Source: Armatimonadota bacterium (GTDB lineage: Bacteria > Cloacimonadota > Cloacimonadia > Cloacimonadales > TCS61). From it: 52,890 nucleotides of DNA. The notes below the pieces were generated by a model, which was not told the DNA's origin, ran no database searches, and worked only from the letters and a program-made list of their open reading frames with translations. Position numbers and translations under genes: made by a program. This document shows, in pieces, positions 7,480 through 18,966 of the stretch. The DNA is taken from the NCBI GenBank assembly GCA_013203665.1, contig JABMPU010000183.1, positions 1-52,890 on the forward strand, in the 5' to 3' direction. Position 1 is the first letter of the stretch; the number at the start of each line of letters is the position of its first letter.

Positions 7480-9327
7480 ATGAAACGGATAACTTTCATA
7501 ATGTTTTTGTTATTCAGCTATATTTTTCTCAATAGTTACACGATCAGTGGTGTCACCCTGATTCAGGATTCTGCTGTTGAGGCGTTTGTTGAACTTTTTG
7601 ATCAACCACCGCATGTGGCAAATAACCCTATCAATTATACAATCAGCAATGAAGACGGACAATACAGCTTCGATATTATGAATCCCGGGATGTATTATGT
7701 AAAAGCCTATATTATAGATCCGATTGCACAATTTCTTTATTACGAAAATACTCCTAATCCTATCCAGGCAACTCCGATTCAGGTGAATAACATGAATCCA
7801 AATGCTACGGGTATCGATTTCAATTTCTTTCCCAATATTATTCCGGGAGATAATTCTTTATCGGGTGTTATAACCGATCCTGATATGACGCCCGTCGAGG
7901 GAGCGCAAGTTGCATTATATGCGCTGATTTCGCCCTGGATGATGCCGTTTTGTGTTTACTCGGATTTCAACGGGAATTACGTATTGGAAAACATTCCTGA
8001 CGGTGAATACCTGCTTGCAGTTTGGCGGCAATCATATCATATTTATTTTTATAACGCTGTTCCCTCCTGGCCAATGGCAACACCAATTGTTCTGGAAAAT
8101 GGAACCGCGATGGTGATAGATGTAATTTTGGAACCACGTGAAATGCATACAATTACCGGAATTGTTATGGATGATCAAACCAACCTGCCTTTGGAAGGTG
8201 CTGTGATCTTTCCACATCCACAGAATATGCCGGGTAATAATCCCGGCAATGGAATGATGTGCTATGGTGTTTCCGATGAAAACGGCTATTATGAATTAAC
8301 TGTTCCGGATGGAATTTACATGGTGATGGCGAGTGATTCGCAAACTGCTGATATTCAGTTCTATCAGCTTGCAGCCTCTCCAATCACTGCCACTTGGATA
8401 ATTGTGGATAATGATATTTCTAATATCGATTTTATTTTGAATGAATCATTGAATGGTGAATTTTCAATTTCCGGCACGATCACAGTGGATGGTGAACTTC
8501 CTGGACCCGGGACACCACCCATAGAAGCAGTGGCTGTTTCCAGCGAAGAAGACTGGGAAGAAGCAGTGATGGCAAATCCCCTGACCGGCGCATATCTAAT
8601 TCCGGATTTACCGGAAGGCACCTATTATGTGTTTGCCTATTCGCCTTATACCCCACTCACTTACTTCGATAATGTTATCAGTTTTGAAGATGCTATCCTG
8701 GTCGATGTTCAAGGCAATATCTCAGACATCGACATAGATTTACAGATTCCGCTGGATAATGGTTATTATCAGTGTACGGGGACTGTCACGGACAATCTGA
8801 GAAATCCGGTGTCAAATGTTACGGTTGCCTTCCTCGATTCCTTTGGAAATATACACGACTATGCATACACGGACATGAACGGAGAATACAATGTTCCAGC
8901 CCTGGGAAACTTGAATTACACAGCACTTGCTACCAAGACTTTTTACTCAACAGATACAGTTACACTGCCGGTTTACGGTAATCAAACCTGGGATTTTACA
9001 ATAAATTCATCGAACACAGACATAGAACAAGACATTGTAAATGTTAAGGATAATATTACTATTCAAATCTACCCAAACCCGTTTAATCCTGAAACGGTTA
9101 TCAGTTTTATTCTACCGGATATTTCAACCCGGACAAAGGTAGAAATTTTTAATGTTCGAGGTCAAAATGTATTCTCCAAAACGTTTTCCAATCTAACTGC
9201 CGGCTCTTATGCAATAGCCTGGAAGGCAGAAGATAAGCAGAAAAAATCCCTGGGAAGCGGTGTTTATTTCCTCAAAATTATAGCTGACTCCCATATTGGA
9301 ACCGGTAAATTGCTCTTGATAAAATAA
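7480..9327 (+). CDS. Secreted carboxypeptidase-regulatory-like surface protein with C-terminal sorting domain
   Basis: A 615-residue paralogue of the preceding protein, with fewer modules. Signal peptide MKRITFIMFLLFSYIFLNSY is followed by about five CarboxypepD_reg-like beta-sandwich units, for example SLSGVITDPDMTPVEGAQV with the partner stretch GNYVLENIPDGEYLL. The C-terminus carries YPNPFNPETVISF and ends GTGKLLLIK, the same FlgD/Por-type sorting signal. No enzyme motif is visible. The ATG at 7480 follows AGGAGG at the proper distance. The hairpin between the two genes and the separate sigma54-like element suggest independent transcription under the same activator. The strong terminator after the stop codon ends the unit. 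Confidence 0.85.
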   Translation: MKRITFIMFLLFSYIFLNSYTISGVTLIQDSAVEAFVELFDQPPHVANNPINYTISNEDGQYSFDIMNPGMYYVKAYIIDPIAQFLYYENTPNPIQATPIQVNNMNPNATGIDFNFFPNIIPGDNSLSGVITDPDMTPVEGAQVALYALISPWMMPFCVYSDFNGNYVLENIPDGEYLLAVWRQSYHIYFYNAVPSWPMATPIVLENGTAMVIDVILEPREMHTITGIVMDDQTNLPLEGAVIFPHPQNMPGNNPGNGMMCYGVSDENGYYELTVPDGIYMVMASDSQTADIQFYQLAASPITATWIIVDNDISNIDFILNESLNGEFSISGTITVDGELPGPGTPPIEAVAVSSEEDWEEAVMANPLTGAYLIPDLPEGTYYVFAYSPYTPLTYFDNVISFEDAILVDVQGNISDIDIDLQIPLDNGYYQCTGTVTDNLRNPVSNVTVAFLDSFGNIHDYAYTDMNGEYNVPALGNLNYTALATKTFYSTDTVTLPVYGNQTWDFTINSSNTDIEQDIVNVKDNITIQIYPNPFNPETVISFILPDISTRTKVEIFNVRGQNVFSKTFSNLTAGSYAIAWKAEDKQKKSLGSGVYFLKIIADSHIGTGKLLLIK

Positions 9328-9345
9328 ACGCTTTATATTACAAAA

Positions 9346-9378
9346 AACCTTCGGCAGTATTTCACCGGAGGTTTTTTT
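9346..9378 (+). terminator. Rho-independent terminator
   Basis: Stem AACCTTCGG / CCGGAGGTT (one G-U type pair) with a 10-base loop, followed by a run of T from 9372. It closes the surface-protein unit. Confidence 0.85.
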
Positions 9379-9542
9379 TATTTGGAAAATGCAGAAATTT
9401 TATCCCACTTTCAAAACATCTTTAATTATCTGTACCAGGATTTCTTTGGGATAAGCTCCCTAAACCATGGTTAGCTGGCATTTCAGGGGAATGAACAAAA
9501 TTGATGGAATGCTTTGGAAATATAATTGAATCGTATAAAAAA

Positions 9543-9590
9543 TAGCTAAGTGCTCAGATTGAAAGAGGATATGAAAGAGCACCGCAGCTA
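9543..9590. repeat. Left island hairpin with CAGATTGAAAGA loop motif
   Basis: Nested inverted repeats TAGCT...AGCTA (9543-9547 / 9586-9590) and GTGCTC...GAGCAC (9550-9555 / 9577-9582) enclose a loop containing CAGATTGAAAGA (9555-9566). The same 12-mer, in the same orientation, sits in the hairpin at 13825-13870 on the other side of the island. The arms differ while the loop is conserved, as in recombination or single-strand recognition sites. Confidence 0.55.
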
Positions 9591-9632
9591 CAAAAGGAAA
9601 TTCAACCCGCAGGATAAATTCAGAAGTATTAA

Positions 9633-9707
9633 ATGTATTATGTTTACGTACTTTTAAGTGAAAAAGATATGAAACTCTATACCGGATTTACTTCGAGAAT
9701 ATTATAA
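9633..9707 (+). pseudogene. Truncated GIY-YIG endonuclease fragment
   Basis: The 24 codons from the ATG at 9633 read MYYVYVLLSEKDMKLYTGFT and then stop. This is the start of a small UPF0213-type GIY-YIG nuclease (YVYVL...K.YTG, where T replaces the usual I of YIG). The remaining 60 or so residues are missing. From 9688 another frame continues as a tyrosine recombinase, so the fragment appears joined to a different gene by deletion or insertion. It is not expected to be functional. Confidence 0.6.
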
Positions 9708-10074
9708 ACACTATTGCCCTGAAGTGTGATTATTTGAAGGAATTAATGGTGGACAATACACAAAAAGAAGCGTTTGGGGAATTATTTATAAAGCTTTAAT
9801 AAAGTCAAATATTGACAAAAAAGTATCAGTTCATAGTTTACGACACAGTTTCGCTACTCATTTATTGGAAGCAGTAGAAGACTTGAGATATATACAAAAA
9901 TTGCTGGGACATAAGAATTTAAAAAATACTGAGATTTACCCCGTTGGATACATTTACACTATATTACAAAATCGAAGAAAGAGATTATCCTACGGGGTGA
10001 ATACCCATATTACAAAGAAAGCAATAAATAGAATAAAAAGCCAATTAGACGAGTTAGAGTTGGAAAATGATTAA
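9688..10074 (+). pseudogene. Decayed XerC/D-type tyrosine recombinase (C-terminal part)
   Basis: In one frame the sequence reads LLREYYKHYCPEV, an in-frame TGA at 9727, then [17 protein letters not shown] and [33 protein letters not shown], and finally [18 protein letters not shown]. The [12 protein letters not shown] box and LLGHKN box carry the His-x-x-Arg and His catalytic residues of tyrosine recombinases. The catalytic Tyr is expected in TEIYTH, but here 21 foreign residues are inserted directly after TEIY by a palindromic DNA element (9939-9997). The N-terminal domain is absent and there is an internal stop, so this is a pseudogene. A TTG-initiated ORF from 9865 survives but would lack most of the fold. 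Confidence 0.75.
9939..9997. repeat. Palindromic mini-element inserted in frame in the recombinase
   Basis: Terminal inverted repeats CCCCGTTGGATA (9939-9950) and TATCCTACGGGG (9986-9997) match at 11 of 12 positions. The insert is 63 bases long and keeps the reading frame, splitting TEIY from THITK. A short direct repeat TACC flanks it (9937-9940 and 10002-10005), consistent with target duplication. It resembles the in-frame palindromic elements known from Rickettsia in behaviour; no sequence kinship is claimed. Confidence 0.6.
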
Positions 10075-10103
10075 TATCGCAAAATTGGGAAAAGTTTGCA
10101 TAC

Positions 10104-10120
10104 ACTCCCAAATCGGGAGT
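10104..10120. repeat. Small CCCAAA-type hairpin
   Basis: ACTCCC-AAATC-GGGAGT inverted repeat in the gap between the recombinase remnant and the phosphoesterase gene. It resembles the palindrome inside the coding sequence at 48406-48427 (CCCAAA core, G-rich right arm). The rest of 10075-10284 shows no gene; AGAGGAG at about 10273 is the ribosome site of the next gene. Confidence 0.45.
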
Positions 10121-10284
10121 ATCCCCGAACTTTTTTATGAATCTAATAAAATAAGAATATTAGCTTATGACTCAAAAAAAATATTGGTAGTAATAGGTTA
10201 GTTAGGTTTAATTATGATTTAATTCCAGATATTAATTCTAATTTAAAACAAAGCTGAAAATAAAAAAAATTAGAGGAGTATGCA

Positions 10285-13200
10285 ATGCGAGAAACTAACA
10301 TTTTAATGATTTCAGATATACATGTTGGGGAGAATTTTTTTTTAACAGATGATGAATCTATAGATTTATATGATTGTACAGCAATAGAGTATTTAGCTCG
10401 GAAAGTCAGTTATGATTATCATAAAAATTTTAACTATTTACCAGACATCATTGTAATAGCAGGTGATTTATCTGAGAAAGGAGAAATAGATGAATTAAAA
10501 GATGTTTCTAAATTTATTAATTTTTTGATAGATTATTTAAATAATAGATTTGATAAAGAAAATAATACTATTAGCAAAGAAAACATAGTAATTGTTCCGG
10601 GTAATCACGATGTTAATTTTAAAGATTGTGAAAAAAATATGGATCCTAGAAAATATAATAATAAAGCTTGGAAAGTAGAAGAAAAACTATTAAATTTCAA
10701 ATCTTTTTTTGATGAGTTCTACAGGAAAACTAAGAAGAATATTGAATTTGATTATAGCCAAGGTTATACATACTATCCATTCTATGAACATTCATTAGTT
10801 ATTTTAGGTTTGGATTCATGCAGAAGAATAAGCCATTTGAAAGATGATAATTGCGGTTGGATAATGCCGCATCAAATAAATAAGGCAAATAAATTTATTA
10901 ATGAAATGATAGGAGATAGTGATTTCCTAAAAATAGCAGTATTTCATCATAATCCATATCCAGCACCCGAATTTAACAAGGAGATTCAGGATGATTTTTT
11001 ATTAAGTTATGATTCAAACAAAATTTCATTTGCTTCTGGAGAATTCAAGATATTAATGCATGGACATATACATACTAATTCTTTTCATCAGGAAAAAATC
11101 GGTAACCATAAAATGTATGTAGGTGGAACAGGAACATTAAGTAGAAAGACTGTTGGAAATGATTTTGGTTACCTATATACTGTGACAAAGTTAAGTACTG
11201 AACATAAAAAAGGATACAGATTAATTAGTAGAAGATTAAATATTTCTGCAGGAAAAAATGATGAAATTGGAAGAGGTAAATGGGAAAAAGCAGGAACAAC
11301 AATAACACATCCTCTTACTTATTTGGGTAGAAGAGCAAAAAAGGATAGTTTAGTAAAAAAATATCTGAAAAGATTACCAACTAAAACGACATTAAATAAA
11401 ATAGAATATAAAAAAAAAATAGAATTATTTTATCATTTTAAGATTTTACTAGAGCCAGATAGATCATTGTCTCTTTTAAAAGATTTGAGAAAATCGTGCA
11501 AAAATATTTTTGATATCAACTACATTGATGCAATGTTGCGTGAGGTAGAAATACAGATACTGTCGAATCAAGGTGAGCAAAGAAGCGTGATAAGATCAAA
11601 ATATATTGATTTACTTAATTCAATATCAGAGAATAAGATAAGTACAAATCATGATACTTTATTGCCGGAAGGGATTCTAAAATTAGAAAGAAACAGATTA
11701 GAAATTATTATTGATTATTATTCCTCACCAACAAAAGATAAATACATTAAAAGTTCGATTAGACTAATACAAAATAATATTGAATTAATTAAGCAATATC
11801 CATATATTGAGAATATTGTTATAGTATCACTAATTCCATCTCTCATTAAATGTAAGGAATATGCTTTAGCAAGAAGACATTTATCAATTAATCTTAAAAT
11901 AAACCCAAATAACCCAATATTACATTTTTTATATGCACGAATATTAATGTATGATCTAAGTTTTAGAGAAGCCATTAAAGAGCTTAATATTGCACAGAAT
12001 ATTTTAGGTGAAGATAAAATTTTAGCTATAGAATTTTATTTAAGTCTTTGTCATTATTATAATGGTGATTTAGAAATTTCTGAAAAAATGAATATGGAGA
12101 ATGCAGAAAGATATTCATTTATCCCTCATTTTATAAACAACTATGCTTTTGGTAAATTAAGAGAACTTTTTAGAATACAAAGAAGTGAAATATTCAAAAG
12201 CCCTAAGAAAGCACTTAATTTACTTGAAAGTTTTGTTGACTCTATAGCTGAAATTGGTTGGAATGGAGTATCTCACTTCAACTATGCCCTAATGCTATTT
12301 TTTGCAGACCAGGAAGGCTTACTTGATGAAGCACTTAGAGTAATTACTAAAGATAATATGAGACAAGATTTATTAACCAAAAAGAATAAAATAGAAGCAG
12401 CATTTGTAAGAGCTGAAACAGCTTTGATATCTGAAGATAAAGATTATGTGCGAGGTATTTTTGCTAGGTATTATCAACTAAGTGTAACTAAGAAATTACC
12501 AAATACATTCATGAAAAAGATATTGGATGAGCTCTGTTGGGATGCTGACAATTTTCTTACAATGAAGATACAAATGTATGAACAAAATAAATCATTTCTT
12601 TTTAAAAACCCAAAAATCACAGATCCTTTTAATCATAATCATTTCAACACTCTAAAACGATGGGCCCGGAATATTAACCCAATAAGAGGTGCTTCTAAAA
12701 CAGGTGGTGGGTATTTCATTAAATGGGAGGGAAGAGGAATAATTATTAATCCTGGATCAAATTTTTTAACTTTCTTTAAAATGAATGGTTATTGTATTTG
12801 TGAAATTGATTCAATTGTTATAACTTATTCTGATTTTTATAATTACGAAGAATTTTTAAACCTATTAGAATTAATTGACGAAGTGTATTCTTCTAGAATA
12901 AAGAAAAAAAAAGTAAGAGTATTCTTGAATAAATCAATATCAAATAAGTTTCCTGAATTATTAAATTATGATAAGGATTCAATATTAGGACCCCAAATTA
13001 TCCTAGAAGAAGAAGATAATATACTTGAAAATGATTTAGCAAAAATTAAGATTCTAGATAAAACAACTCCGATTGCAATTTTAAAATTAAGTAATAAGAA
13101 AATAACAAAAAAAATTGCGTTTATTAATGAAAAGAGTAATCTAGAAAATGTCGTTGATAGTTTTTATAACGATATTGATCTTGTTGTCTTTAGTGTTGGA

Positions 13201-13692
13201 GCATTATCAGTTAAAGATATTATGGATGATGAAGTAATGAATTATTTGAATAATTATTGGGTAAATATAAACGAAGATAGTAAATTAGATAGTCAAGCAT
13301 TAGGAATAAAAGAGTTGCTAAAAAGAACCAAGGATAAAAATAATATTTTTCAATCTAAGATGACTACTTTATTAAAATTATCAGAAAAGATGAAGAAAAA
13401 TTCAATTATTGTTCTATCAGATTTACCTCTTGAATTGGGTGATAAGAGACATATGATTGCTAGAGTTCTTAACAGGTATAGAATTGATCTCCAAGTTCTG
13501 ACATCTGATTTAGGGTTACATATCGAATTAAACGAACTCAAAATATTATGTGAATATTCAAATCAATTGGTTGACAATAGAGTTATTGATGAGGAGTGTT
13601 TAGAAGGAAATATATGGGGTCATGTTAGACATTTTTGTAAAGAATTAAGAAGTGATGATAATTTTACAAAATTTTTGGAATTAGATATTTAA
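10285..13692 (+). CDS. Calcineurin-like phosphoesterase fused to helical repeats and a degenerate metallo-beta-lactamase-like domain
   Basis: An 1135-residue protein of unknown role. Residues 1-340 form a calcineurin-type metallophosphoesterase with all metal motifs: DIH (Asp11, His13), GDLSEKGE (Asp61), GNHD (Asn107-Asp109), a FHHNP motif, and HGHIH (His261, His263). Residues of about 350-790 are helical, TPR-like and low in recognisable motifs. From about 807 the text GGGYFIKWEGRGIIINPG, then IDSIVITYSD, and later SDLPLELGDKRHMIARVLN and LTSDLGLHIEL follow the pattern of an MBL-fold hydrolase. The HxHxDH metal box has become YSDFYN (848-853), so that domain should not bind metal. No signal peptide or membrane segment is seen. 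The gene is far more AT-rich than its neighbours, stands alone, and lies in a hairpin-bracketed island beside a recombinase remnant. That points to horizontal transfer, and a defence role is possible. The MBL reading is from motif pattern only. Confidence 0.7.
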   Translation: MRETNILMISDIHVGENFFLTDDESIDLYDCTAIEYLARKVSYDYHKNFNYLPDIIVIAGDLSEKGEIDELKDVSKFINFLIDYLNNRFDKENNTISKENIVIVPGNHDVNFKDCEKNMDPRKYNNKAWKVEEKLLNFKSFFDEFYRKTKKNIEFDYSQGYTYYPFYEHSLVILGLDSCRRISHLKDDNCGWIMPHQINKANKFINEMIGDSDFLKIAVFHHNPYPAPEFNKEIQDDFLLSYDSNKISFASGEFKILMHGHIHTNSFHQEKIGNHKMYVGGTGTLSRKTVGNDFGYLYTVTKLSTEHKKGYRLISRRLNISAGKNDEIGRGKWEKAGTTITHPLTYLGRRAKKDSLVKKYLKRLPTKTTLNKIEYKKKIELFYHFKILLEPDRSLSLLKDLRKSCKNIFDINYIDAMLREVEIQILSNQGEQRSVIRSKYIDLLNSISENKISTNHDTLLPEGILKLERNRLEIIIDYYSSPTKDKYIKSSIRLIQNNIELIKQYPYIENIVIVSLIPSLIKCKEYALARRHLSINLKINPNNPILHFLYARILMYDLSFREAIKELNIAQNILGEDKILAIEFYLSLCHYYNGDLEISEKMNMENAERYSFIPHFINNYAFGKLRELFRIQRSEIFKSPKKALNLLESFVDSIAEIGWNGVSHFNYALMLFFADQEGLLDEALRVITKDNMRQDLLTKKNKIEAAFVRAETALISEDKDYVRGIFARYYQLSVTKKLPNTFMKKILDELCWDADNFLTMKIQMYEQNKSFLFKNPKITDPFNHNHFNTLKRWARNINPIRGASKTGGGYFIKWEGRGIIINPGSNFLTFFKMNGYCICEIDSIVITYSDFYNYEEFLNLLELIDEVYSSRIKKKKVRVFLNKSISNKFPELLNYDKDSILGPQIILEEEDNILENDLAKIKILDKTTPIAILKLSNKKITKKIAFINEKSNLENVVDSFYNDIDLVVFSVGALSVKDIMDDEVMNYLNNYWVNINEDSKLDSQALGIKELLKRTKDKNNIFQSKMTTLLKLSEKMKKNSIIVLSDLPLELGDKRHMIARVLNRYRIDLQVLTSDLGLHIELNELKILCEYSNQLVDNRVIDEECLEGNIWGHVRHFCKELRSDDNFTKFLELDI

Positions 13693-13824
13693 TTTCTATA
13701 GAATTCTTTTTGTTATAGTTATTTTCAATATCTATTTCAAAATGTATAATAGGATAATATTTACGTTGTTAGTCAATAATTTTGGTATTGAAATAAAATA
13801 AAATGATTAAAGCGCTTAACATCG
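13693..13824. other. AT-rich intergenic stretch after the island gene
   Basis: Part of the 352-base gap 13693-14044. It holds no ORF and no strong terminator; TTCTATAGAA at about 13696 is a weak palindrome followed by a short T-run. GCTTAAC at 13814-13820 lies just left of the right island hairpin. The remaining gap holds that hairpin, a T-rich tract at 13890-13900, and the promoter region of the catabolic cluster. Confidence 0.4.
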
Positions 13825-13870
13825 CACTCCACATTCAGATTGAAAGAAAAGCATGAAGAACGTGGCAGTG
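13825..13870. repeat. Right island hairpin with CAGATTGAAAGA loop motif
   Basis: CACTCCAC (13825-13832) pairs with GTGGCAGTG (13862-13870) leaving one extra C unpaired. The loop holds CAGATTGAAAGA (13836-13847), identical to the left island hairpin. GCTTAAC immediately to the left fits the RYYYAAC core of integron attC sites, and the extra-helical base is also an attC trait. The partner core GTTRRRY is not found to the right, so it is at best an attC-like or broken site. Confidence 0.5.
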
Positions 13871-13983
13871 GACAACCATTAAACAATTCTTTTTTTTCTT
13901 ACACTCTCACTCTATATATTATTTAAGTTTTTCCGTTTGATTTAATGCTATTTAAACCCAAGAAATCAAGTTTTGTTATTTGC

Positions 13984-14015
13984 TTGACATTAGATTGGCA
14001 CTGCAAATTCTTGCA
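13984..14015 (+). promoter_or_regulatory. Promoter/operator region of the catabolic cluster
   Basis: A perfect TTGACA (13984-13989) is followed by the inverted repeat TGCAA-ATTC-TTGCA (14002-14006 / 14011-14015), placed where the -10 region is expected. No good -10 hexamer is visible at 17-bp spacing. The palindrome is a possible repressor site. GGAGG at 14036-14040 serves the ATG at 14045. Confidence 0.4.
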
Positions 14016-14044
14016 TAAAAATAATAATCATTTTTGGAGGTTAA

Positions 14045-14962
14045 ATGGCTATAAAAAAACTTGATGATTTAATCGAATTGGCAAAAAAAAGAGCCAAAAA
14101 AAGAGTAGTTATAGCGTATGCTCACGATGATAATTCAATATTATCAGCTCAAGAAGCTTATAAATTGGGTTTGGCAGATGCAACTCTTATTGGAGATGAG
14201 AAGATTATCAAACAAGCTTGCAAAAAGAATAAAATCGATTATAAGAAATTCAAAATCATACACGAACCTGACGAATTGAAATCCGGTATGAAAGCAGTCG
14301 AATTGATCAGGAAGAAGAAAGCTGATATTTTGATGAAAGGTCTGATATCTTCCGATAATTACATAAAATGTATTATCGATAAGAAAAACGGATTGATGAG
14401 ACCAAACGCAGTGCTTGCTCATGTAGCCATTTTTGAAATTCCAACTTATCATAAACTGCTTATAATCAGTGATGCAGCTTTTATTCCTCTGCCAACAATT
14501 CAACAAAAAATTGCCATAACCAATTATCTTGTTTATACTGCTCATAATTTGGGAATAAAGATACCTAAAGTTGCTATTTTATCCTTCACGGAGAAATCAA
14601 ATCCATTAATCGATTCAAGTGCGGATGCTGCCATAATTGCTAAAATGGGAGATAGAGGACAAATAAAAGATGCTTATATCGATGGACCGCTTGCTCTCGA
14701 TGTCGCCATTGATCCTGATAGCGTTATGGTCAAAGGGATAATAAGTAATGTTGCCGGTGATGCCGACTGCCTTGTCTTTCCGCAATTGGAAGCTTCAAAT
14801 ATTTTCTATAAAACACTCACGAAACTGATGCATGCCGAAGCTGCCAGTTATATTGCGGGAACTATTGCACCGGCAATGCTTTCTTCCCGCGGAGATAGTG
14901 AAAAAACCAAACTCTATTCCATTGCTGTCGGATGCCTTATTGCAACTGATCCAAATAAGTAA
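14045..14962 (+). CDS. ptb: Phosphate butyryltransferase (Pta/Ptb family)
   Basis: Predicted cytoplasmic phosphate acyltransferase that interconverts acyl-CoA and acyl-phosphate, with butyryl- or branched acyl groups the likely substrates. The 305-residue length and the conserved blocks ADILMKGLISSDNYIK, FEIPTYHKLLIISDAAF, DAYIDGPLALDVAI and GDADCLVFPQLEASN are typical of Ptb rather than the longer Pta. The second Ptb lies two genes on. No butyrate kinase is in the window, although it would be needed to make ATP from the product. The gene opens the acyl-CoA cluster after a fresh promoter region and a good GGAGG site. Exact acyl specificity cannot be read from the sequence. Confidence 0.88.
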   Translation: MAIKKLDDLIELAKKRAKKRVVIAYAHDDNSILSAQEAYKLGLADATLIGDEKIIKQACKKNKIDYKKFKIIHEPDELKSGMKAVELIRKKKADILMKGLISSDNYIKCIIDKKNGLMRPNAVLAHVAIFEIPTYHKLLIISDAAFIPLPTIQQKIAITNYLVYTAHNLGIKIPKVAILSFTEKSNPLIDSSADAAIIAKMGDRGQIKDAYIDGPLALDVAIDPDSVMVKGIISNVAGDADCLVFPQLEASNIFYKTLTKLMHAEAASYIAGTIAPAMLSSRGDSEKTKLYSIAVGCLIATDPNK

Positions 14963-15013
14963 TGTGTGCCTTTTATGATTTAACAAAAACAATGCGATAA
15001 GGAGTAATTTATT

Positions 15014-15379
15014 GTGAAAGATAAAAAAAATGAATTTGCAGCTCTTCCCTATCCTGAGATGATCAAAAATCTTTCTAAAATCGAAATTCCAATCGATGGA
15101 ATTCAAGGCTGGCTTTTACAAAGCAAGACTAAGCAGGTTGTATTCTTTGATATCGAACCTGTTGGAAAAATGCCCGACCATTCTCATTGTGCTCAATGGG
15201 GAATAATGCTTGCCGGTGAGATGGAATTGACGATTGCAGGACAAACAAAAATTTATCGTAAAGGTGATAGCTATTTTATTCCTGATGGAGTAATTCATTC
15301 AGCGAATTTTCCGTCTCATGTAAATGTCATCGATGTTTTTGACGATACCAACAGGTATTCTATCAAAGGAGAAAGTTAA
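15014..15379 (+). CDS. Small cupin-domain protein
   Basis: A 121-residue single-domain cupin starting at GTG 15014. The beta-barrel motifs are visible: HSHCAQWGIMLAGEMELTI (cupin box 1, HxH...G) and the second box GDSYFIPDGVIHSANF with a histidine. It could bind a metal through these histidines. It sits between the two ptb genes, and its last base is the first base of the following ATG, so the two are probably translationally coupled. It could be a small-molecule sensor, isomerase or enzyme of the pathway; the sequence does not decide. Confidence 0.75.
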   Translation: MKDKKNEFAALPYPEMIKNLSKIEIPIDGIQGWLLQSKTKQVVFFDIEPVGKMPDHSHCAQWGIMLAGEMELTIAGQTKIYRKGDSYFIPDGVIHSANFPSHVNVIDVFDDTNRYSIKGES

Positions 15380-16296
15380 TGGAAATTCGCAAACTCGATC
15401 AGGTTTTTGAGCATCTTAAAACAATTGAAAAGAAAACTATTGCCGTGGTTGCTGCTGAAGAACAGGACATTTTGAATGCAGTTAAAGTGGCTGTAACTAA
15501 TGGTTATGTGAATGCAATTCTGGTAGGAAATAAAGTTAAGATTTCAAAAATCGCTTCAGACATCGATTTCAATATTTCCGGTTTGGAAATAATTGATGAG
15601 AAAGATTCAAAAATCTCTGCTAAAATTGCGGTTAAGCTTATTCGTGAAGATAAAGCGGATGTTCTGGTAAAAGGTCTGGTAGGAACAGCAGATTATTTAA
15701 AAGCAATTCTAAATAAAGAAACCGGTATTCTTCCTCCCAAAGCTATTTTATCTCATGTCACAATTCTGGAATATCCAACCTATCATAAGCTGCTTTTTGT
15801 AAGCGATATTGCTGTGATTTTCCAACCCAACCTGGAACAGAAAATCGCCATGACCAATTATTGCATTGAAGTAGCTCATGCTTTCAATATTGAAAAACCA
15901 AAAGTTGCTATGCTGAATTGCTCGGAAAAAATTGCACTCGATTACCAGAATTCTTACGATGCTGCCATCATTACTCAAATGGGCAGAAGAGGACAGATCA
16001 AAAATGCCATCATCGATGGACCAATGGCTATGGATTTAGCTGTTTCCAAGAAATCCTGTTTAACCAAGAAATTTGATAGTCCGGTTGGTGGTGATGCCGA
16101 TGCAATTGTATTTGGAAATATTGAAGCCTGCAATTCTTTCTACAAAACTGGAGTTTACTTGGCAAATGCTAAAATGGCAGGCATAATCATGGGTGCAAAA
16201 GCTCCTGTTGTTCTAACTTCACGCAGCGACAGCGATGAATCAAAATTATTTTCAATTGGTGCGGCAGCATTAGTAGAAAGTAAGAAAAATTGTTAA
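15379..16296 (+). CDS. ptb: Phosphate butyryltransferase (second copy)
   Basis: A second 305-residue Ptb-family acyltransferase, clearly paralogous to the one at 14045. Shared blocks include VLVKGLVGTADYLK, LEYPTYHKLLFVSDIAV, NAIIDGPMAMDLAV and GDADAIVFGNIEACNSFY. Identity to the first copy is moderate, so the two probably handle different acyl chains (for example straight and branched). The ATG overlaps the stop of the cupin gene by one base. It is followed by a promoter-like region at 16320, so the first transcription unit may end here. Confidence 0.87.
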   Translation: MEIRKLDQVFEHLKTIEKKTIAVVAAEEQDILNAVKVAVTNGYVNAILVGNKVKISKIASDIDFNISGLEIIDEKDSKISAKIAVKLIREDKADVLVKGLVGTADYLKAILNKETGILPPKAILSHVTILEYPTYHKLLFVSDIAVIFQPNLEQKIAMTNYCIEVAHAFNIEKPKVAMLNCSEKIALDYQNSYDAAIITQMGRRGQIKNAIIDGPMAMDLAVSKKSCLTKKFDSPVGGDADAIVFGNIEACNSFYKTGVYLANAKMAGIIMGAKAPVVLTSRSDSDESKLFSIGAAALVESKKNC

Positions 16297-16319
16297 ATAT
16301 TCTCAAATATACAAAATTC

Positions 16320-16357
16320 TTGACAGCATGATTTCAATTTTTATCTAAGATAGATAA
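16320..16357 (+). promoter_or_regulatory. Promoter with palindromic operator before the RHH gene
   Basis: TTGACA at 16320-16325 is followed at -10 distance by a perfect palindrome TTATCTA-AGA-TAGATAA (16341-16357). A palindrome over the -10 region is a classic repressor site. The next gene encodes a ribbon-helix-helix-like protein, so autoregulation is the simplest reading. Confidence 0.5.
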
Positions 16358-16403
16358 TAATCTAAGTAAAATATTTGCTTTCCCTTAAAGAAAGGAGGTA
16401 GAG

Positions 16404-16694
16404 ATGAAAAGACGTAACCACGAAGAACCACCTAAAAAAGCTAACATCACTCTTGAACTCGATGAAGAAATGATTAATAATATAAAAAAAATCGCAACTA
16501 TAAAAAAAATATCTGTATCAGAATTGATTAATAAAGTTTTACATAATTTTGAATACAACTTCAAGAGACTGATTAAAGAAGAAAAAAGCGATATTTCAGA
16601 TGAAGAAAAATATCTTGAATATATGGATTCTCTAAGAAAACTTCTATCAGATTCCGGTTTATCAATAAAATCAAAAAAATATTTAATTGGATAG
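16404..16694 (+). CDS. Small ribbon-helix-helix-like (CopG-type) protein
   Basis: A 96-residue basic protein. The segment KANITLELDEEMINNIKKIA followed by KKISVSELINKVL has the strand-helix-helix layout of RHH DNA-binding proteins, with S-E-L-I in the usual turn position. The C-terminal 40 residues are charged and helical. An AAAGGAGG site precedes the ATG. It stands 26 bases before the first acyl-CoA dehydrogenase and directly after a promoter with a palindrome. It is a good candidate for a local repressor of the dehydrogenase-Etf-Hdr unit. An antitoxin of the RHH class is less likely because no toxin gene is adjacent. Confidence 0.6.
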   Translation: MKRRNHEEPPKKANITLELDEEMINNIKKIATIKKISVSELINKVLHNFEYNFKRLIKEEKSDISDEEKYLEYMDSLRKLLSDSGLSIKSKKYLIG

Positions 16695-16720
16695 TTCCAA
16701 ATTAATTATTCGGAGGTGTA

Positions 16721-17833
16721 ATGAGTTTAATCCGCTTCAATAATGAACAAAAAATGATTAGGGATGAATTTAGAAAATTCGCTACTTCTGAACTCGAACC
16801 TATTGCTGAAGAGATCGAAAAAAATGCAATTTTCCCAAAAGAAATCGTCAATAAATTATCTGAATTAGGTTTGTTAGGTCTGATAATTCCGGAAAAATAC
16901 GGTGGAGTTGAATTAGATGTAACCAGCCTGTGCATTGCTGTTGAGGAAATATCTAAAGTCTGTGCTTCTATCGCTACTGTTCTTGTGGTCAACAATTGTA
17001 TGGTTGCCTATCCTCTGATGAAATATGGTGAAGAAACTCTGAAAGAAAAATATTTGAACAAACTTTCAAATGGTGAAATCGGAGGATTTATTTGCGAACC
17101 GGAATTTGATCTTTCGGAAGAGGAAAATAACTTAAAAGTAGGTGGAAATGATTTAATTTTTTCCGGTCATCGAGAATTTGTTTTAAATGGAGAAGCAGCA
17201 AATTTTTACATAATGCCGATTACTACTCCTGAATACACGAAATATTACATATTTGATAATGACACAAAAGGAATTTTATTGAGCCAAAAAAATCTGCTCG
17301 GTATGCGAGCAGCCGGTTTTATGAATGCTGAATTTCAGGATATGAAATTGAAGAAAGAAACTTGTTTTATTTCTGAGGATAAAAGTGGTAAAATCCAATT
17401 TGAAATAAAAGATTACGCCAATGTTGGCTTTTGTGCGATTTCATTGGGAATTGCTCAAGCTGCCTTGGAAACCTCGATTAAATATTCCAAAGAGCGAGTT
17501 CAATTTGGCAGACCAATCTCAAAATTCCCAATGATCCGGGAAATGCTTGCAGAAATGAAAATTAAAATTGAAACAGCGAGATTACTCGTTTATGATGCAG
17601 CTTCCAAGATTGATAATGGAGAAAATTTTTCGGTTCAATCAAAAATTGCTCGCTTGTATTGCGGAGAGATGGGTGTATTTGTGGGACTTAATGCTATCCA
17701 GGTTCACGGCGGATATGGCTATATGAAGGATTATCCTTTAGAAAGATATTTCAGGGATACTAAAGTTCTCCAACTTTTGGAAGCATCTCCCAGAGTTTTT
17801 AAATCTCAAATTGCTGGAGAGTTATTAAAATGA
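16721..17833 (+). CDS. Divergent acyl-CoA dehydrogenase family protein
   Basis: A 370-residue protein with the overall acyl-CoA dehydrogenase fold: N-terminal helical domain with LGLLGLIIPEKYGGVELDV, C-terminal domain with YSKERVQFGRPISKFPMI and QVHGGYGYMKDYPLERYFRD. The FAD/substrate loop that reads TEPNAGSD in the two neighbours is ICEPEFDLSEEE here. The C-terminal EGTSEIQ is EASPRVFK, so a Glu is kept at the usual base position but its surroundings are lost. It may be a low-activity or non-catalytic partner of the following dehydrogenases, or act on an unusual acyl group. Its stop overlaps the next ATG (ATGA), indicating tight co-expression. Confidence 0.8.
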   Translation: MSLIRFNNEQKMIRDEFRKFATSELEPIAEEIEKNAIFPKEIVNKLSELGLLGLIIPEKYGGVELDVTSLCIAVEEISKVCASIATVLVVNNCMVAYPLMKYGEETLKEKYLNKLSNGEIGGFICEPEFDLSEEENNLKVGGNDLIFSGHREFVLNGEAANFYIMPITTPEYTKYYIFDNDTKGILLSQKNLLGMRAAGFMNAEFQDMKLKKETCFISEDKSGKIQFEIKDYANVGFCAISLGIAQAALETSIKYSKERVQFGRPISKFPMIREMLAEMKIKIETARLLVYDAASKIDNGENFSVQSKIARLYCGEMGVFVGLNAIQVHGGYGYMKDYPLERYFRDTKVLQLLEASPRVFKSQIAGELLK

Positions 17834-18966
17834 TATTAAGCGATAAACATCTTAAATTCAGAGAAAAAGTCAGGCAATTCGCTGATGAAGTAGTTGCACC
17901 AAGAGCAATTGAACTCGATCTAAACAGCGAATTCCCTCATGATTTAGTGAAAAAAATGGGAAAGATGGGTCTTTATGGATTGTATGTTCCTGAAAAATTT
18001 GGAGGTTCCGGTAAAGACACTCTTTCTTATGCTATCGCAGTAGAAGAAGTAAGCCGTGCCTGCGGTTCAACCGGAATTTTTCTTGCAGCTCATACTTCTC
18101 TTGCTGTGTCTCCAATATATCTTGCAGGTAATGAATTCCAAAAACAGAAATGGCTTATTCCTCTCGCAAAAGGTGAAAAGATAGGTTCTTTCGGTTTGAC
18201 CGAACCAAATGCTGGTAGTGATGCATCCGGAACACGAACTATAGCCAAACTTGTTAATGATGAATATATCATAAATGGTGATAAATGTTTTATAACTTCC
18301 GGGCATGTTTCTGATATTATCGTAATTACCGCAACCAAAGATCCCTCTTTAGGATACAAGGGAATTTCTGCTTTCGTGGTCGAAAAAGGAACTCCTGGTT
18401 TTTCTCCGGGAAAAGAAGAAGATAAATTGGGATTAAGAGGTTCCATAACTTCTGAACTGATTTTTGAAGACTGTAAAATACCTAAAGAAAATTTATTGGG
18501 AAAAGAAGGAGATGGTTTTAAGATATTTATGCAAACCCTTGATGGCGGCAGGATTTCTATTGGTGCTCTTGCTTTGGGAATTGCTCAAGGGGCTCTTGAA
18601 CACACGATTAAGTTTGTGAGAGCTAATACTATTTCAGGGAAACCACTTTACAAAGAGCAATCCATCCAATCAAAGATCGCAGAAATCGGAACTGAGATCG
18701 AAGCTGCCCGATTACTCATTTATCAAGCTGCCGAACTGAAAGATGCGGGGAAACCTTTAACTAAAGTAGCTGCGATGGGGAAATATTATGCTTCGCTTAT
18801 CGGCATGAAAGCAACTAATACTGCCATCGAAATTCATGGGATGTTGGGTCTGACCAAAAAATATCCTGTTGAACGATTTATTCGCGATGAGAAACTTATG
18901 GAAATCGGGGAAGGAACTTCCGAAATCCAGAAAATTGTAATTGCCAGAGAAATATTAGGAAAATAA
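17830..18966 (+). CDS. Acyl-CoA dehydrogenase
   Basis: A 378-residue flavoprotein that oxidises an acyl-CoA at the alpha-beta bond and passes electrons to Etf. All family signatures are intact: GSFGLTEPNAGSDASGTRT (FAD and substrate loop), ITSGHVSDIIVI, the Arg/Gln FAD contacts, and MEIGEGTSEIQKIVIAREIL at the C-terminus with the Glu of the catalytic region. It overlaps the preceding gene by four bases and is followed 22 bases later by another dehydrogenase. In this cluster isovaleryl-CoA, isobutyryl-CoA and butyryl-CoA are the likely substrates among the three paralogues; which one takes which cannot be settled here. Confidence 0.9.
   Translation: MILSDKHLKFREKVRQFADEVVAPRAIELDLNSEFPHDLVKKMGKMGLYGLYVPEKFGGSGKDTLSYAIAVEEVSRACGSTGIFLAAHTSLAVSPIYLAGNEFQKQKWLIPLAKGEKIGSFGLTEPNAGSDASGTRTIAKLVNDEYIINGDKCFITSGHVSDIIVITATKDPSLGYKGISAFVVEKGTPGFSPGKEEDKLGLRGSITSELIFEDCKIPKENLLGKEGDGFKIFMQTLDGGRISIGALALGIAQGALEHTIKFVRANTISGKPLYKEQSIQSKIAEIGTEIEAARLLIYQAAELKDAGKPLTKVAAMGKYYASLIGMKATNTAIEIHGMLGLTKKYPVERFIRDEKLMEIGEGTSEIQKIVIAREILGK

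Follow-up and report, generated by a model that had tools for sequence, protein, structure and literature searches.

Metallophosphoesterases (MPPs) are the catalytic component of the described systems closest to the locus reported here. DS-8 is a single-gene metallophosphatase-NACHT anti-phage system and DS-9A a two-gene system of metallophosphatase and HAD; mutation of the MPP catalytic residues abolishes defence in both DS-8 and DS-9A, and SMPDL3A is the relative cited for DS-8 by the DefensePredictor authors (PMC13092281). Calcineurin phosphodiesterases have also been predicted to serve prokaryotic conflict systems of the STAND, TRADD-N and MoxR-vWA types as N-terminal effectors that can be swapped (PMC8195603, PMC7159879). 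Here we describe a 1135-residue protein from a Cloacimonadota genome in which an N-terminal MPP is joined through a helical region to an inactivated, RNase Z-like metallo-beta-lactamase (MBL) domain.

The gene occupies positions 10285-13692 on the forward strand of the window (the whole 52,890-nucleotide stretch of DNA analysed; every feature of the gene given below lies on the same strand), begins with ATG and carries a ribosome-binding site, AGGAG, six bases upstream (10274-10278). The reading frame is real: at the gene's own base composition, the chance of an open frame of 1135 codons is log10 P of about -50. The product gave a single full match across its own genome, and no full-length homologue was found in the searches made: a whole-protein scan of genome contigs returned no match, a search of plasmids yielded one match confined to the MPP, phages yielded zero, and a PDB search with the single sequence returned chance ribosomal matches only. 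The complete MPP-helix-MBL arrangement is absent from the other 124 genomes of the host phylum, Cloacimonadota, and the exact architecture is present in none of the relatives found. The order of parts laid out in the original prediction, a live phosphoesterase followed by a helical linker and a dead MBL domain, holds; with no full-length homologue found, it is therefore not an architecture that can be checked by conservation.

Residues 1-300 (10285-11184) form a calcineurin-like metallophosphoesterase domain, matched by PF00149 over residues 5-264 at 1.3e-11 (45.8 bits, above the gathering score of 21.5). All of the metal motifs claimed for it are intact and align as invariant across six relatives: DxH (D11, H13; 10315-10323) and GD (G60, D61; 10462-10467) are invariant in relatives, and GNHD (G106-N107-H108-D109; 10600-10611), HH (H221-H222; 10945-10950) and GHIH (residues 260-263, G260-H261-x-H263; 11062-11073) are common to them. 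Judged by these motifs, the domain looks like a working metal phosphoesterase and would probably be catalytically active. Foldseek matched its AlphaFold (AF2) model, built from an alignment with two relatives (pTM 0.73, with a modest pLDDT of 59.7), to Rv0805, GpdQ and SMPDL3A. Of the nuclease/phosphatase-like domain first proposed, the nuclease option is not favoured, the closest folds being cyclic-nucleotide and related phosphodiesterases rather than nucleases; SbcD/Mre11, considered as the nuclease candidates, gave weak sequence matches and were absent among the significant fold matches. The MPP superfamily is huge and includes many ordinary roles.

Curated models connect the MPP with both anti-phage systems. 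Its best match is NF053862, 'DS9_1 anti-phage phosphoesterase' (9.4e-26, 86-91 bits against a cut-off of 420), followed by NF053861, 'DS8' (2e-9, 35.8 bits against a cut-off of 790, over the MPP part only); both scores fall far under the cut-offs and therefore indicate kinship rather than membership. Like DS-8, the locus comprises one gene with an N-terminal MPP of the same superfamily and an SMPDL3A/Rv0805-like fold, followed by a large regulatory part, but in DS-8 that part is a NACHT NTPase, whereas here it consists of helices and the dead MBL. The DS-9 model that gives the top match has its MPP towards the C-terminus (193-448 of 486), in contrast to the N-terminal MPP and 800 further residues of our protein, and no HAD gene adjoins the locus, its neighbours being CarboxypepD_reg and PTA_PTB. 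An N-terminal calcineurin phosphodiesterase effector is also the point of likeness with STAND, TRADD-N and MoxR-vWA conflict systems; no STAND NTPase, TRADD-N, vWA or GTPase part was found in our protein. Neither the open-access literature nor the libraries searched contained a described system of the same architecture, in agreement with the original prediction. The effector type is thus already known, and its pairing with a putative pseudo-MBL regulator is new to the sources searched.

Elsewhere in Cloacimonadota, MPPs are fused to STAND/NACHT-like NTPases at L013, L015 and L018, which score 538, 149 and 506 bits, respectively, against the DS8 model (L013 and L018 are truncated loci). An MPP-phosphoribosyltransferase (PRTase) fusion is encoded in a viral contig, next to a phage-type repressor and transposase (L046:4830-6599), as well as in a Cloacimonadota genome (L003:1474-3204); it is likely an accessory or defence gene. 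Viral contig L047 carries an MPP near an integrase-like gene. The phylum's best DS9_1-like match is an MPP fused to a methyltransferase domain (L010:1-2226, at least 741 residues).

The region between the two domains (residues 341-790; 11305-12654) is a predicted helical linker, modelled by AF2 as all helix at low pLDDT (residues 341-760 being called all helix, at low confidence), and sits where relatives have TPRs. The TPR-like helices originally proposed therefore survive as helices at that confidence, and no significant TPR was detected in the query's middle region by Pfam or by a consensus TPR compared with shuffles. Many relatives with the MBL domain carry Pfam TPRs at the corresponding place, and three members match PF20308, TPR-S.

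Homology, AF2, Foldseek and motif alignment together identify residues of about 791-1115 (12655-13629) as an inactivated RNase Z-like MBL domain. No Pfam family matches the domain directly. The fold pattern read from the letters (GGGYFIKW, GIIINPG, IDSIVIT) was borne out by alignment with true Lactamase_B proteins, and a Cloacimonadota relative with a true Lactamase_B domain (L004) aligns with the C-terminus at 34% over 92 residues. A scan seeded with L004 recovered 15 loci from many phyla, an archaeon included; together with one relative from a viral contig and those from another survey, of 395 genomes, they make up the 23 MBL relatives considered here. By NCBIfam, 12 of 17 family members resemble RNase Z. 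AlphaFold gives a confident MBL core for the C-terminal domain, from an input alignment that held live MBL relatives, such that the model is no independent proof of the fold. Foldseek relates the model to ELAC/RNase Z, YhfI and Apyc1 (9.5e-8 to 1e-4). An RNase Z-like MBL is thus what both tools return for the part whose fold the original prediction had proposed to test by structure prediction, and the assignment, from model and sequence homology combined, is solid. The class II phosphodiesterases RNase Z, YhfI and Apyc1 share this fold, but they are standalone enzymes, and our domain is without any metal ligand. The stretch SDLPLELGDKRHMIARVLN (residues 1045-1063; 13417-13473) is part of a C-terminal extension of the same MBL domain. 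The C-terminal part alone had no match among plasmids, a search of viral contigs with the query labelled A1 had none either, and among viral proteins Foldseek found no more than weak matches of MBL type. A PADLOC match to DpdC (0.0024) was at chance level and was set aside.

Every metal-ligand motif of the MBL domain has been lost. The zinc box HxHxDH is replaced by YSDFYN (residues 848-853; 12826-12843), as first noticed, and alignment to relatives extends the loss to the remaining motifs: the His of motif 3 is gone, the metal Asp of motif 4 is replaced by E949 (INEKS for TGDSG; 13129-13131) and the metal His of motif 5 by A1005 (QALG for NHLG; 13297-13299). Read from this alignment, the domain is a pseudoenzyme. 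HxHxDH is kept in 19 of the 23 relatives; the four dead ones comprise two from Chlamydiota, one from Zixibacteria and one from Stahlbacteria, the last partly dead and in tandem with a live paralogue. At that tandem (L129:5659-9137), one TPR-MBL paralogue is intact (HHHIDH) and the other largely lost (HRQRPS). When the motif columns were excluded from tree building, the dead members came out scattered and five changes were needed (bootstrap 4-5); well-supported branches force only two of the five, and the dead members sit on long branches, with uncertain placement. The five changes make it likely that the metal site was lost several times independently.

The only close relative of the protein is a truncated C-terminal remnant in a related genus of the same family (genome G030, L002:1096-2693), which adjoins an IS630-type transposase. 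Its identity to our protein across the final 160 residues is 43%; the motif 5 His is missing from it as well, and SDLPLELGDKRHMIARVLN, including ELGDKRH, is strongly conserved. Over these 160 residues, dN/dS is about 0.39 (dN 0.52, dS 1.34), which, with the shared missing His, argues that constraint on the domain persisted once some or all of its site had gone.

Across phyla, the MBL family is a module with varied N-terminal partners: TPRs, STAS (L041) and, here, an MPP. Members of the TPR-MBL family (L030-L045, L123-L129) share a homologous MBL with GGGYF, GIVIDPG and the C-terminal extension, preceded by a helical region, but none has an MPP, and the metal site is kept in the 19 of 23 noted above. 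L041 (8176-9834) is a fusion of STAS, TPR and a dead MBL, with STAS in the place of the MPP. The neighbourhoods of the relatives vary, rather than showing the fixed housekeeping setting that would have counted against the original prediction. The survey for defence islands that it suggested placed some relatives in defence-type loci. At L125 (6342-11293), a tight operon runs from HATPase_c_3 through a DndB/DpdB-like gene and a live MBL of the family to an Mrr restriction nuclease, an arrangement suggestive of a restriction or defence operon not yet characterised; L038 has genes of GmrSD/Schlafen, DUF499 and integrase-like types nearby, and L009/L045 lies on a viral contig with integrases. The remaining relatives occupy variable, mostly unremarkable places. 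With most relatives outside obvious defence islands, defence is therefore not general to the MBL family.

The gene itself lies within a recent, species-specific, low-GC insertion of about 4.4 kb (9496-13919, ends approximate), delimited by a drop in GC and by comparison with a single sister species, G001 (L080), in which the counterparts of window positions 9129-9495 and 13920-18344, at 91-92% identity, are about 88 bp apart. About 4.4 kb was thus either gained here or lost in G001; gain would be the simpler reading because the GC of the insertion is low (27%). The AT-richness originally remarked upon is clear, the gene having 26.7% GC (GC3 17.7%), whereas the rest of the window, with the insertion excluded, has 37.0%. 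The recombinase remnant, too, was correctly recognised: the C-terminal part of the catalytic domain of a tyrosine recombinase is encoded at 9715-9939 on the forward strand (PF00589 positions 91-165, 2.8e-17), broken by one in-frame TGA. A short, broken GIY-YIG-like fragment, identified by eye, lies upstream of the gene at about 9633. A 13-bp direct repeat, TCAGATTGAAAGA (9554-9566 and 13835-13847), lies a short way in from each end of the insertion and is possibly a trace of integration or a product of chance. Secreted CarboxypepD_reg proteins flank the insertion on the left, and a cluster of PTA_PTB, acyl-CoA dehydrogenase and ETF genes on the right; no defence gene adjoins the gene within the window. 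The proposed 'island' stands as an insertion with remnants, and amounts to one gene and those remnants.

We put at about even the chance that this gene arrived by horizontal transfer and encodes a conflict protein complete in one gene, most probably directed against phages, in which an MPP effector is coupled by a helical linker to a dead MBL sensor or regulator. In such a protein, the N-terminal MPP would hydrolyse a phosphodiester bond, either of a nucleotide signal or of a nucleic acid, the dead RNase Z-like MBL would bind a trigger (a nucleotide, an RNA or a phage product) or keep the MPP inactive, and the linker would relay a change from the MBL domain to the MPP. A defence or signalling role is plausible, since DS-8 and DS-9 both use a validated effector from this MPP family. 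The fold relatives of both domains are phosphodiesterases, of two unrelated classes, which would make a cyclic-nucleotide or RNA-related ligand for the dead pocket a natural first guess, and only that. The same kinship would also suit an enzyme of ordinary nucleotide signalling, in which a nucleotide-binding, dead class II (RNase Z/YhfI/Apyc1-like) domain regulates a class III (Rv0805-like) cyclic-nucleotide phosphodiesterase and the task is housekeeping or stress signalling, not defence. The closest solved folds, Rv0805 of class III and YhfI and Apyc1 of class II (class per PMC9117128), and the STAS signalling domain that stands in for the MPP in L041 are in its favour, but patchy presence, a foreign insertion of 27% GC with a recombinase remnant and an architecture absent from 124 other genomes of the phylum are unlike housekeeping, and we consider this explanation rather unlikely.

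The dead domain could instead be a mere scaffold for dimerisation or packing, with sensing left to the helical solenoid or absent from the protein altogether. ELAC2 (a tRNase Z long form) and CPSF100 are established precedents for an inactive MBL partner, and the TPRs of relatives, including the three members that match TPR-S, could themselves be the sensor. MBL enzymes of this type also dimerise, Apyc1 being a homodimer (PMC9117128). A scaffold would leave the recurrent loss of the site across different N-terminal domains unexplained, though compatible, and we regard it as unlikely. That the gene is a relic, brought in by a mobile element that has since decayed, and is still intact through recency but functionless in its host, would fit the broken state of both the recombinase remnant and the upstream GIY-YIG-like fragment, as well as a sole close relative that is itself a truncated remnant beside a transposase; 1135 uninterrupted codons at 27% GC, with MPP motifs and ribosome-binding site intact, speak against it, and we judge it very improbable. 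Returning to the single-gene conflict protein, its boldest form would be a one-gene immune class whose receptor is a dead MBL of the class II phosphodiesterases; on recognising a trigger, either a nucleotide or a product of the phage, this receptor would turn on a class III phosphodiesterase as effector. The protein would then be one case of a cross-phylum MBL module that repeatedly loses catalysis and takes different N-terminal partners; in this full form, the proposal is unlikely.

Anti-phage defence has gained validated metallophosphoesterase effectors only very recently, with targets still to be named (PMC13092281). The protein described here pairs an effector of this type with another kind of regulator, an inactivated RNase Z-like domain, and draws attention to an unannotated TPR-MBL family that is widespread and has lost catalysis repeatedly. 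Should the dead domain prove to be a receptor, the pocket that once took its substrate would offer a direct and testable lead to what such proteins sense.
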